From Campylobacterales bacterium (GTDB taxonomy: Bacteria > Campylobacterota > Campylobacteria > Campylobacterales > Sulfurimonadaceae), in NCBI GenBank assembly GCA_024280035.1, contig JAJRQV010000097.1, positions 1-32,971 of the forward strand: DNA of 32,971 nucleotides, in the 5' to 3' direction. This document shows, piece after piece, positions 9,607 to 13,651 of the stretch; positions within the stretch are counted from its first letter, which is position 1, and each line of letters starts with the position of its first letter. The notes beneath the pieces are model-generated. The model ran no database searches. It was not told the DNA's origin and was given only the letters and a program-made list of their open reading frames with translations. The translations under genes and the position numbers were made by a program.

Positions 9607-10054
9607 AGGTGGATTCATTAACATTATGTTCATCCACTATATTTATCTTTGGGTATTTTTCTTTTAAGTACGACGCAGCTATTCCATCATCATACATAAG
9701 TACTCTTCTGTCTTCATTCAAAATAGGTGTTGTACCTAAACCACAAGAAGGAGACTTGGACTTTAAAACAATCATCTCTAAATCAGGATGATGTTTTACT
9801 TGTAAATCCACCTGCTCTTTGATTAAAGCGGTAACATCTTTATTTGTCTCATCTGTTACGACTTTATACTCTTTATCTTTAAAAAGTACAGAAATTCTCT
9901 CTCTTGGTGTTCCCAGCACAGGAGCCTCTGGGCAAAAAGAGATAATCTCATAATCTTTAAAGGCTTCTATAACTGTTTTATCTTCTTTAGTAGCCCCATC
10001 ATATCGACAGTATTCACCTAATAAACACCCCGAAATTAAAACTTTTTTTTTCAC
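9605..10054 (-). CDS. DUF523 family protein
   Basis: This 149-residue protein opens with VLISGCLLGEYCRYDGATK and contains FCPEAPVLGTPRERI and LKSKSPSCGLG, the cysteine-containing signatures of the DUF523 family (YbbK-like, cytosolic, function not established). The conserved cysteines suggest metal or redox chemistry, but no activity can be assigned. The start is a GTG (10052-10054) overlapping the TAG of the aldehyde dehydrogenase gene as TAGTG, so the two are translationally coupled. Codons 2-4 form an uninterrupted A9 run, so a one-base slip there would abolish the protein. Confidence 0.85.
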   Translation of the reverse strand: MKKKVLISGCLLGEYCRYDGATKEDKTVIEAFKDYEIISFCPEAPVLGTPRERISVLFKDKEYKVVTDETNKDVTALIKEQVDLQVKHHPDLEMIVLKSKSPSCGLGTTPILNEDRRVLMYDDGIAASYLKEKYPKINIVDEHNVNEST

Positions 10055-11469
10055 TAACAGATGACTACCGATTTAATTTCTGTAAATTCTTCAATAGCAA
10101 ACCTAGGACCTTCACGTCCTACTCCACTCAGTTTGACACCTCCATAAGGCTGAATATCAAAACGTAATGTTGGCATATCATTAATTACAATTCCCCCCGC
10201 ATCTAACTCTGAGATAGCGCGTTGTGTTAGTTTAAGGTCATTTGTAAAAACAGAGAACTGAAGCCCATAAGGTGAGTTATTCATCTTAGGTTTTGCCTCA
10301 TCAAAATCTTTTACTTTTACAAGTGAAACAATAGGCGCAAAAACTTCTTCACATACAATAGCCATATCATCGCGAACATCTGCCATAACACAAGGATAAA
10401 ACATTTTTCCCTCGCACTTTACTTTTGTAATCGCCTTAGCACCCTCATCAATTGCTGATTGAACCCATCCCATAGCTCTTTTTGCAGCCTCATCATCAAT
10501 TACAGGACCCATAAATGTATTTTCATCATAAGGTGAACCGACAACAAGTTTTGAAGTCTCTTCTGCCATCTTTTGAGCAAAGTCCTCATAAATATCTTCA
10601 TGTACATAAATTCTTTGTAAAGAGATACATACCTGTCCTGAATTCACAAAAGCACCTAAGGCACAACGATTAGCAGCAATATCTAAGTCTGCTGACTTAT
10701 CAATAAAGGTTGCGGCATTACCACCAAGTTCAAGAGATATTTTTTTAATTCCTGCTGATTTTGTAATAATGTTTCCGACTGGAACTGAACCCGTAAAAGA
10801 GATAACTCGAGGAATCTCATGTTCAACTAAAGTAGAGCCTACTTCAACATCTCCATATACTACACAAAGGGCATCTTTAACCGCAAACTCACTCTCAATA
10901 AAAAGTTTTGCAAACTTATAAGCGGTAAGAGGGGCTTCAGGTGTAGGTTTTAGTACTACACAGTTTCCAGAAACAAGAGCAGGCGCAAGTTTATGCGCAA
11001 CTAAATTTAGTGGAAAGTTAAAGGGGGTAATGGCTGAAATAACACCAACAGGTTCTCTAAAAAAATATGAGATTGTTTTTTTACCCGAAGCCATAGCATC
11101 GGTATTAATGGTTTCACCATGCATTGTTCGCATAGTCTCTGCACTCAGCCTTACTGTTTCAATAGCACGACTGACTTCAATACGAGAAAACATAAGTGGT
11201 TTTACCACCTCATCGGTAATAGTTAAGGCTAAGTCTTCTAAGTTTTCATGCATCTTCTCAGCCACATCTAAAAGCCATGAACAACGTTGTGAAAGCGTTG
11301 ATGCCTTCGCTCCTGCTCTTGCATTTTCCGCAATTTTCAGTGCTTTAACTGTATCATCTGCAGTACAGACAGGTGCTGATGAAACTACTCTATTATCAAA
11401 CGGGGACAAGCGTTCACTCATCTCAGATTTTGTTGCTTCATTGCTTCCAAAAAATATTTTAGCTTCCAT
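10054..11469 (-). CDS. NAD(P)-dependent aldehyde dehydrogenase
   Basis: This 471-residue protein has the full aldehyde dehydrogenase superfamily set: ITPFNFPLN, VVLKPTPEAPLTA, SFTGSVPVG, the general base Glu247 in ELGGN, and the nucleophile Cys281 in NSGQVC. The end is PYGGVKLSGVGREG. It oxidises an aldehyde to the acid (or acyl form) with NAD(P)+ in the cytosol. The C-terminal NDMPTLRFDIQPYGG pattern resembles the lactaldehyde/phosphonoacetaldehyde/glyceraldehyde-3-phosphate branch more than betaine aldehyde enzymes, but the substrate cannot be settled by eye. It is the first gene of a unit with DUF523 and possibly bcp, and has its own likely -10 box upstream. Complete, without lesions. Confidence 0.93.
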   Translation of the reverse strand: MEAKIFFGSNEATKSEMSERLSPFDNRVVSSAPVCTADDTVKALKIAENARAGAKASTLSQRCSWLLDVAEKMHENLEDLALTITDEVVKPLMFSRIEVSRAIETVRLSAETMRTMHGETINTDAMASGKKTISYFFREPVGVISAITPFNFPLNLVAHKLAPALVSGNCVVLKPTPEAPLTAYKFAKLFIESEFAVKDALCVVYGDVEVGSTLVEHEIPRVISFTGSVPVGNIITKSAGIKKISLELGGNAATFIDKSADLDIAANRCALGAFVNSGQVCISLQRIYVHEDIYEDFAQKMAEETSKLVVGSPYDENTFMGPVIDDEAAKRAMGWVQSAIDEGAKAITKVKCEGKMFYPCVMADVRDDMAIVCEEVFAPIVSLVKVKDFDEAKPKMNNSPYGLQFSVFTNDLKLTQRAISELDAGGIVINDMPTLRFDIQPYGGVKLSGVGREGPRFAIEEFTEIKSVVIC

Positions 11470-11507: not shown

Positions 11508-11601
11508 CCTTTACTAATTTAAATAAAATTTCTAATCTATTTTGTTTAACAAATATTTTATATTTATCCTTATTTACTCATAAAATTTTAAAGAGCTTTA
11601 A

Positions 11602-11760
11602 GGGCACCTCTAAAAACCATATATTCACTCAGCGATACAATAAATTTACTCTTACTTTGTTAGATACAATTGAAGCTACTCATAGCTCCTTCACTTATCT
11701 GCCTCGTAATAGCAAACTTCTTGTATCGCTGAGTGAATATAGGGTTTTTTAGAGGTGCCC
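11602..11760. mobile_element. MITE-like element with ~40-bp terminal inverted repeats, flanked by TTAA
   Basis: The left end GGGCACCTCTAAAAACC... and the reverse complement of the right end GGGCACCTCTAAAAAACCC... match for about 40 nt, including TATATTCACTCAGCGATACAA, with one small indel and one or two mismatches. The element is 159 bp and is bounded by TTAA on both sides (11598-11601 and 11761-11764), compatible with a YTAR-type target duplication as in IS5-family elements. Read on the minus strand, the interior has GAAGGAGCT-ATG followed by only seven codons and TAA, which looks like a transposase start fused to its end by internal deletion. It encodes no transposase. It ends about 30 bp before the tetR operator, so it forms the distal part of that promoter region. 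Confidence 0.8.
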
Positions 11761-11790
11761 TTAAGTTAATAAATTATATCATTCATCATA

Positions 11791-11811
11791 AGTGACCGAC
11801 AGTCGGTCACT
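11791..11811. promoter_or_regulatory. Perfect palindromic operator upstream of tetR
   Basis: The arms AGTGACCGAC and GTCGGTCACT flank a single central A, giving a perfect 10+10 inverted repeat that ends 23 nt before the tetR ATG. Length, symmetry and position fit the binding site of the TetR-family repressor encoded next to it, so autoregulation of the efflux operon is inferred. Confidence 0.85.
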
Positions 11812-11834
11812 AATCAAAAGAGCTAAGGTTTTGT

Positions 11835-12431
11835 ATGGCAATTATTGTAGATAAGGTTCAAAAAAGAAGAGATATTGCACTTTCTTGTGTCAAACTCTTT
11901 GTTCAAGGAGGTATTGGACATCTCACTATCTCCGAAGTAGCAAAAAAAGCAGGCATTGGCAAGGGTACATTTTATGATTATTTTAAAAATAAAGAGGCCA
12001 TTGTATTTGAAATTTTAAATATATTACTTGAAGAACATAGCAAAGGTAAAGAGCTTAAAATATCTCAGGCATCGTCTACTCGAGAAAAGGTCAAAATGTT
12101 TTTTGATTTTTATTCTAATAATGAAGATAAAGAGCTTAGACAGATTTATAAAGAGTACATATCTATCTCTTTAAGTAACCCCAATAAAGAGATGGTTGAT
12201 TTTCAAAGTAAATGTTTTAATACTTATTCATCATGGCTGAAAAATATTATTCAAGATGGCATTGAAAATAAAGAGATTATTCCTGAAGCACTTAACCTTT
12301 CAAAAGGGCTTTACTACTTTGGAGATGGGCTTTTCTTTAATTTTTCTACCACCAATGTTATTGGCGATATTAAAAAAGAGATTCATTTTTATGTGGACTC
12401 TCTTTTTGATCTAATTGAGGTTAAAAAATGA
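11835..12431 (+). CDS. TetR family transcriptional regulator of efflux operon
   Basis: This 198-residue protein has a typical TetR N-terminus. Residues ~27-60 (GHLTISEVAKKAGIGKGTFYDYFKNKEAI) form the helix-turn-helix with the family-defining GTFYDYFKNKE recognition/positioning helices. The C-terminal ~130 residues would form the ligand pocket and dimer interface; the ligand is unknown. The ATG is preceded by AAGG at fair spacing. A perfect palindrome lies just upstream, and the stop codon overlaps the next ATG as ATGA. It is thus the first gene of a four-gene efflux operon and most likely its repressor, released by a pump substrate. Confidence 0.92.
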   Translation: MAIIVDKVQKRRDIALSCVKLFVQGGIGHLTISEVAKKAGIGKGTFYDYFKNKEAIVFEILNILLEEHSKGKELKISQASSTREKVKMFFDFYSNNEDKELRQIYKEYISISLSNPNKEMVDFQSKCFNTYSSWLKNIIQDGIENKEIIPEALNLSKGLYYFGDGLFFNFSTTNVIGDIKKEIHFYVDSLFDLIEVKK

Positions 12432-13651
12432 AATTTTTGCTTCTTCTTAGCCTTCCCCTCTTTCTTTATGCCAGCAGTTTAAAATCTTTATTAGAGTATG
12501 CCATTGATAACAATAATCTCGTGCTTTCTCGAAGCCTAAATCAGCAAGCAAAACAGGCAGAAGTAGACTCAAAACACAGTGCCTACTACCCTACCCTTGA
12601 TGTTGGAGCTAATTACCAAAGCCTAAATGGAAGAACACCTTTTTACCCAGGAGACATATATGGTGCGGGGGCAACCTTAGGTCTTGATATTTATGATGGA
12701 GGAAGAAAGTCTTCTCAATTATAACAGAAAAAAAATGAACTTAAGGCAAGTAGTTTTGACACCCAAGCAATAAAAACAAGTATCAGTCTACAAATTGTAC
12801 AAGACTTCTACAGCATAAAAAGTCTAGAAGCAACACTCTCCTCACGGTTGAATGCAAAAAAATCCCTTCAGGCACAACTTGAACGTATGAAAAAATTCTA
12901 TGATGCTAAACTTGCCACGATAGATGATGTTGATCGACTGCAATCTGCTTTTGATACTAATATTTATCAAATTGAATCAATTAAGTTTGACATTCTTGCT
13001 ACTAAACGTTCATTAGAATTAAAAATAGGAAAAAAAATACTTAATCTGGACGACTCAAAATTTAAACGGCCTTATGATGAAAGCTACGAATTGGTAGACA
13101 GTACAAAATCTTTAATGGCGCAAGAAGAGGCAATTATTAAAAGTTCAGAATCCATTGAAAATATTTATTACCCTAATATCCGCGTAGAAGAGAGCTATAC
13201 TATTTATAAATATGACCGAACAGATGCCTTCCATCCTGAAGGAGCAGAAAAACAGAATAAAATCTTAGTCAGTTTAAATATGAGACTTTTTGATGGGGGA
13301 ACAATTAAACAAGACAAACAAGCTATTTTACTCAATTCACAAGCCCTTAATCAAAAAGTTCTTTATAAAAAACAAGAACAAAAAATTCAATATGATCTGG
13401 CACTTTCACGTATTCAAACCAGTAAAATTAAAATTAAAAGTGCAAAAAGTGCTCTTGTTTCTGCTAAAAGTAGTTTTAAGACCATAGAAGAAAAATATAA
13501 TGCAGGTATTGTTGATAATATTGTTTATCTTGATGCCTTAAGTACTCAAACCTCAGCAGAAGCACTTTACAAAAGTTCACTTAATGACTTAGAAATTGCT
13601 TATGCTATGTATTATTACTACGCTGGAAAAAATATAGGAGATTATTTATGA
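12428..13651 (+). pseudogene. TolC-family outer-membrane efflux protein, interrupted by in-frame TAA
   Basis: The ATG at 12428 starts a signal peptide (MKFLLLLSLPLFLYASS) and a TolC/OEP-type protein: SLKSLLEYAIDNN, YYPTLDVGANY, GLDIYDGGRKSSQL. A TAA at 12722-12724 then interrupts it after 98 codons. The same frame continues without further stops as QKKNELKASSFDTQ... and the OEP pattern repeats in the second half (NMRLFDGGTIKQDKQA; YNAGIVDNIVYLDALSTQ). Ignoring the stop, the product would be 407 residues, normal for the family. It would form the outer-membrane trimer and periplasmic coiled-coil channel of the pump. Overlaps are ATGA with tetR upstream and ATGA with the adaptor gene downstream. 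The stop could be a nonsense mutation (GAA to TAA is simplest), a sequence error or, less likely, a readthrough site. Confidence 0.85.

Follow-up and report, generated by a model that had tools for sequence, protein, structure and literature searches.

The window considered in this study is the whole of a 32,971-nucleotide stretch of DNA (contig JAJRQV010000097.1) from a Campylobacterales bacterium of the Sulfurimonadaceae. It contains, at positions 11602-11760, a MITE-like element of 159 bp, with TTAA flanking each end. The parts of the element and its neighbors are listed here, with nt numbers referring to a 266-bp form of the element found in related genomes and described below.

10054-11469, minus strand: aldehyde dehydrogenase gene, the divergent neighbor on the side opposite to tetR
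11598-11601: target-site duplication TTAA, left; a single TTAA stands at the orthologous empty site
11602-11631, plus strand: left terminal arm, element nt 1-30, starting GGGCACCTCTAAAAACC, IS5-type ends
11631-11632: deletion junction CTCA/GCG, where nt 31-138 of the 266-bp form are absent
11632-11729, plus strand: cruciform arm B, nt 139-236 of the 266-bp form
11660-11683, minus strand: mini-frame from ATG to TAA, 7 codons, behind GGAG; unconserved in the family, with no sign of being a gene
11730-11760, minus strand: right terminal arm, complementary to the left one; 31 nt here, with one additional T
11761-11764: target-site duplication TTAA, right; a single TTAA at the empty site
11788-11814: palindrome TGACCGAC.GTCGGTCA, a putative TetR operator; a neighbor, outside the element
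11835-12431, plus strand: TetR_N regulator (tetR), a neighbor

An inverted-repeat comparison finds a perfect outer repeat of 19 nt (11598-11616 with 11746-11764, the TTAA counted in) and an inner pair of 44 nt (11612-11655 with 11706-11749) that matches at 89%, in good agreement with an earlier note on this DNA, which had described a 159-bp MITE with inverted ends of about 40 bp and TTAA on both sides. There is no transposase gene in the 159 bp, the longest noted frame being that of 7 codons. The right TTAA ends 23 bp from the palindrome upstream of tetR, which is kept in genome G001 and partly in G006 and which is probably the operator of TetR. Further along the window, beside genes for an RND-type pump, the gene for an outer membrane efflux protein (OEP) is split across two frames (12428-12724 and 12848-13651), so that this copy seems to be interrupted.

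What lies between the aldehyde dehydrogenase gene and tetR is a non-autonomous MITE of the IS5 type, inserted at TTAA. It is short and gene-free, it has terminal inverted repeats and a target duplication, there are many copies in relatives, and its ends are common to insertion sequences (IS). The empty site that the earlier note had proposed to look for is found in G001, of the same genus, where the aldehyde dehydrogenase gene, the palindrome and tetR stand in identical order with one TTAA; this is a single genome, the only one among five of the same genus with an orthologue of tetR (E ≤ 1e-15). The element is not conserved at this site, and IS with matching ends are present (see below), these being the two points on which the reading as a MITE might have failed. 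The suggestion that the element influences tetR gained no support: the distance from TTAA to the operator core (TGACC) is 32 nt both in the window and at the empty site of G001, and promoter-like sites occur as often as chance would have it (2 found, 2.5 expected). A terminator-like hairpin on the minus strand (11689-11672) coincides with the tip of arm B (0.0 expected by chance), and a weak stop for leftward transcription is possible at that point.

The expectation of other copies held for related genomes and not for the element's own. No second copy was found in the 2,511,769 bases (107 contigs) of the window genome, where the second listed match is the element against its own reverse complement, nor was there any match in a plasmid collection. 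The DNA of the element was matched in 44 of 100 genomes, its own counted (E ≤ 0.01), with the nearest copies in G001 and G005, both of the same genus as the window genome. A pattern search for paired ends at long spacing found them in 35 of 200 genomes of the family, representing 10 of 18 genera, with a reversed-pattern control of zero in every row. The length is 265-266 bp in 61 of the 93 paired-end copies at the loci examined, a set in which one pairing or more is spurious (L045, of 297 bp, is one) and which takes in the unchecked L151 (305 bp); nine end pairings judged spurious were left out before alignment. Exact 4-bp direct repeats flank 46 of the 91 copies for which both flanks are present, whereas 200 rounds of shuffling the flanks gave 10.3 on average and never more than 18, and 5-bp repeats flank none. 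The most common 4-bp target repeat is TTAA (16), followed by TAAA, ATAA, TTTA, and TATA.

Intact transposase-bearing elements with the ends of the MITE, the full-length IS that the earlier note had called for, are present in its family and order. They are L060 (1270 bp, flanked by TTAA/TTAA), L061 (1350 bp, without a target repeat), L064 (1252 bp, from the same family as the window genome, with a target repeat at three of four bases), and L037 (1296 bp, on a viral contig, flanked by CTCT/CTCT), each with a long transposase frame and two of the four (L060 and L037) with an exact 4-bp target repeat. L064 was found by means of the domains DUF772 and DDE_Tnp_1, and L060 and L061 by similarity to the L037 protein. 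That protein has both domains and matches NF033581 (transpos_IS5_4) at 272.8 bits against a cut-off of 140, L037 being the one of the four whose protein was compared with that library. L037 carries this IS5 family transposase between the same ends, whereas the window element encodes no protein, and I infer that an IS5-family transposase acting in trans moved the element. No transposase with the ends of the MITE was found in the window genome, G001 or G005 (copy-rich), multi-contig assemblies being able to lose repeats; neither DUF772 nor DDE_Tnp_1 was found in G000 or G001, and the two DDE_Tnp_1 matches in G005 both lack the MITE's ends. Interrupted IS5-type transposase genes with GGGCACC-like ends were seen at L062 (G010) and L063 (G003).

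Long copies of the element contain about 108 bp that the window copy lacks. There are 78 of them (255-275 bp), from which 60 were retained at 95% identity for determination of the fold, and 40 of these entered the alignment used for covariation. One cruciform fits the 60 nonredundant copies (mean identity 0.668), with these parts:

nt 1-30 with nt 237-266: terminal helix of the 266-bp form
nt 31-131: arm A
nt 132-138: small hairpin
nt 139-236: arm B

Covariation spans nearly the entire 266-bp element. In the 40-row alignment, 94.4% of 3671 cells are paired, and double changes occur in 62 of 92 pairs. The covariation score is 0.456, as compared to a mean of 0.158 after shuffling (reached by none of 500 shuffles, which ignore relatedness) and 0.106-0.131 for slid versions, the gap to the latter being partly by construction, since the fold was derived from the same sequences. 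How the changes accumulate may be seen by sorting pairs of copies by divergence, counting over all 104 sense pairs: copies no more than 2% diverged show no double and 36 single-side changes, those 2-5% apart show 20 double and 100 single-side changes, and in those more than 25% apart about 47% of changes are double. Compensation is therefore not instant, given the lack of double changes below 2% divergence. The pattern fits mutation followed by repair from the opposite arm, or else selection; selection for structure is possible.

Relative to the long copies, the window copy is missing exactly nt 31-138, that is, arm A and the small hairpin, so that its terminal helix continues directly into arm B. 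The sequence of the junction, used as a search pattern, matches at 19 places in 16 of 228 genomes, and five of the places are the element, in three genomes from three genera (one in G000, one in G054, and three in G048). The pattern is exact, and the five copies are for that reason a lower bound; 13 of the remaining 14 places were checked and have no element ends, and the last (G012:C145) was judged by sequence alone. The homology between the retained ends at the junction amounts to one nucleotide (G31/G139). Five of the 11 short GGGCACC forms examined share the junction, the others (130, 137, 153, 155, 157, and 214 bp) being without it. Direct repeats were noted by eye in L051 (TTCACTC) and in L047, L048, and L053 (AAAAACC/AAAAGACC). 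No 266-bp parent was found in the window genome. In G048, the short copy L115 is the same as four 266-bp copies of that genome minus 108 bp, except for one mismatch at a base that agrees with the opposite arm; L205 corresponds to the C7 copy of G048 minus 108 bp, with two mismatches; and the nearest long parent of L116 is seven mismatches away. Because L115 and L205 match different long parents, and L116 no close one, there would have been at least two deletion events in G048, perhaps three, and at least four overall, unless gene conversion between copies, which could have spread one deletion within G048, is responsible.

I consider it likely that the feature as a whole is an IS5-type MITE and at the same time a deletion derivative of a 266-bp element that is able to fold, as DNA, into a cruciform. 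A more ordinary history, in which the MITE arose by internal deletion of an IS5-family element and kept its ends and remnants of its transposase gene, would account for the ends shared with intact IS, the 4-bp repeats, and the short frame with its ribosome site, which the earlier note had taken for the fused start and end of a deleted transposase gene. The frame is there, 7 codons behind GGAG on the minus strand, but its ATG and GGAG (GGAGCTATG) occur in only 5 of the 78 long copies, and the inside of the element matches the non-coding 266-bp family. When copies were compared with the four intact IS (blastn-short), 266 matches were obtained from 34 of 36 copies; since none of them lies clear of the terminal 30 bp or is longer than 20 bp, the inside is not derived from those IS. 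A deleted transposase as the origin of the inside is rejected on these grounds, and internal deletion of an IS as the source of the MITE is very improbable. The short form might alternatively be an old second type of element that spread independently, rather than the product of recurrent deletion. The constant length of 158-159 bp and the identical junction across three genera agree with this, as does the distance of L116 from any parent, but the short copies resemble long copies from their own genome or genus, and L115 and L205 fit different G048 parents almost exactly. Independent spread of an old short type seems to me improbable.

As to how an arm might be lost cleanly from the 266-bp form, I infer that template switching between the arms is the best mechanism. 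The strand would fold into a cruciform as DNA during replication, and the polymerase would switch template between the arms of the folded strand. A switch that skips arm A would give rise to the short form, in which the terminal helix runs directly into arm B. A switch could also copy the sequence of one arm onto the other, and repeated switching would help explain how the arms stay complementary despite drift in sequence. In quasipalindrome template switching, according to PMC8794818, an arm of an imperfect inverted repeat is rewritten to match the other, and the process has been proposed to keep stems paired. Such rewriting of one arm as the complement of the other is found in L149. There are 31 differences in all between it and its nearest relative, L008 (88.7%). 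Seven substitutions and a 1-nt gap fall in the left side of arm B, between nt 153 and nt 167, as against a single difference in the right side (nt 200-236); the left side has thereby become complementary to the right, and the two form a perfect repeat of 36 nt. The window copy has TATATTC in its right arm, like its left arm, where all 11 of the long copies of G001 and G005 compared have ATACTC. The converted stretch in L115 is a single base, and the C7-type copy of G048 has A at the converted site, in the left arm. The likeness to quasipalindrome template-switch mutation lies in the rewriting of one arm to match the other; the difference is that here it takes place in a mobile element and is joined by the recurrent, precise loss of a 108-nt stretch.

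The 266-bp element covaries as a cruciform, and on strand-neutral pairs it does so without the G-U bias of a control RNA. The 90 pairs predicted on both strands comprise 4865 Watson-Crick, 147 G-U, 161 A-C, and 210 other combinations, with 17 gaps, as compared to 547 Watson-Crick, 54 G-U, 8 A-C, and 11 other in the SRP RNA of that family, put through the same procedure (20 rows, 31 pairs; the loci come from 30 of 55 positive genomes among 61 searched, with 20 left after removal of redundancy). A set of elements with CTGACC ends, discussed below, gives 907, 32, and 37 for the first three classes (12 rows, 86 pairs). Counts from pairs predicted on one strand, picked by an energy model that favors G-U, are 319 G-U and 52 A-C in the 14 sense-only pairs and 23 G-U and 77 A-C in the 7 antisense-only pairs. 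The strength of the covariation, the abundance of G-U in the sense-only pairs, and a fold score better in sense (-208.8) than in antisense (-187.4) would be expected of a functional structured RNA, whose covariation would come from RNA selection and of which the window copy would be a broken example. Against this stand the near equality of G-U and A-C in the both-strand pairs and again in the CTGACC set, unlike SRP RNA, the tolerance of the loss of a whole arm, and the lack of any Rfam match inside the elements tested. There was none in the window or in four loci, and ten more loci gave only a TPP riboswitch outside the element, so that a known RNA family is rejected as the identity of the elements. 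A functional RNA is, all told, unlikely. The structure may instead be kept by selection at the level of DNA, for example for a cruciform or hairpin used in transposition, with a nuclease removing the extruded arm to leave clean deletions. The strand symmetry of the neutral pairs and the near-constant length, both in the paired-end copies and in the long CTGACC-end copies, suit this account well, but the arm rewriting in L149 is predicted by template switching and not by removal with a nuclease; I regard DNA-level selection as a serious possibility, though not the one I would choose. The TPP riboswitch is an ordinary one, near MITE copies in G087 (L223 670-762, minus strand).

Some matches to the inside of the element carry different terminal repeats. 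A 23-base core pattern is found in 14 of 298 genomes of the order, which belong to five families, and its reversed control in none. Of 33 such loci, representing about 28 distinct places, 31 are recognized at E ≤ 0.01 by a core model built on the GGGCACC copies, L209 and L215 being without a match, and reversed sequences gave one match, at E 0.37. The best loci with other ends are L005 (8e-39) and L007 (4e-34); most of the others lie between 1e-5 and 1e-18 with part of the core covered, and since the loci had been pre-selected by the core, the weak matches are partly by construction. Paired ends are present in 22 of 27 core loci, with spans mostly of 262-272 bp and a few shorter (221, 245). 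The end types found on the core are CTGACCTTACGCA, CCATCGG, CCAATCCC, AGTACCTA, AGTCCTTA, AGTAAGAGACCC, TTGCCAT, TACACATC, and CTCTGAACAA. Copies with CTGACC ends, which occur in other families, are long in 21 of 38 cases, 13 of the 21 being exactly 266 bp. An exact direct repeat of 7 bp flanks eleven of the 38 (5 long and 6 short copies), and one of 8 bp flanks three more; in 200 shuffles, 7-bp repeats numbered 0.8 on average and never exceeded 4. A different transposase is therefore likely to be used by the CTGACC-end copies; no intact IS with CTGACC ends was found in the 29 loci checked (up to 1500 bases on either side). Putative TA duplications of other end types are individually indistinguishable from the palindromic ends.

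The ends, going by these patterns, may be exchangeable on the element. I would tentatively go further, in a conjecture that could well prove wrong, and view the mobile DNA cruciform of about 266 bp as a transferable chassis, with architecture and length conserved across several families (the core motif in five), in which template switching from arm to arm, and not selection on an RNA, does most to keep the pairing, and with terminal repeats changed to ride different transposases (4-bp repeats with GGGCACC, 7-bp with CTGACC, and probably TA with several others).

By its anatomy the element is a MITE, of an unusual kind: a DNA cruciform that conserves its shape, has repeatedly lost an arm cleanly, and may be able to exchange its ends. 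Like MITEs from IS5-family elements, it is short and gene-free, has repeats common to intact members of that family and 4-bp target repeats, and presumably needs a transposase in trans; unlike them, it has only its tips in common with the IS compared, and between them lies a cruciform that covaries and hardly changes in length. Other interspersed short palindromic elements spread over related genomes are ERIC, Correia, and BOX elements and REPINs. The present elements are scattered in the same way and differ in their ends, length, and host group. In the part of the open-licence literature covered, no description was found of such elements in Sulfurimonas, Arcobacter or relatives; term searches gave no mention of Campylobacter, Helicobacter and others in PMC10969869, nor of Campylobacter, Helicobacter, Wolinella, Sulfurimonas and others in PMC2267715. 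If the interpretation is true, these elements are natural examples of how a mutation process can mimic the kind of covariation from which functional RNAs are claimed. They would also be a case of a mobile element whose shape is preserved as its sequence, and perhaps its carrier, changes. The recurrent, exact loss of an arm makes the idea of template switching directly testable in a laboratory strain.

Two observations on elements with other ends may be added. A second MITE, of 116-120 bp with CTGACCTTACGCA ends and an unrelated inside, occurs at L265-L273 and other loci, in genomes of two other families; the idea that the CTGACC-end elements of 116-120 bp are arm deletions was rejected, their inside being unrelated by eye. 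In elements with other ends, such as L222 and L212, both arms seem, again by eye, to contain conserved unpaired motifs (CAAGGC/TAACG and CGTTR/GCCTTG). These surround a stem of about 8 bp that varies in sequence and yet stays paired, as might be expected if the internal loop were recognized by a protein.
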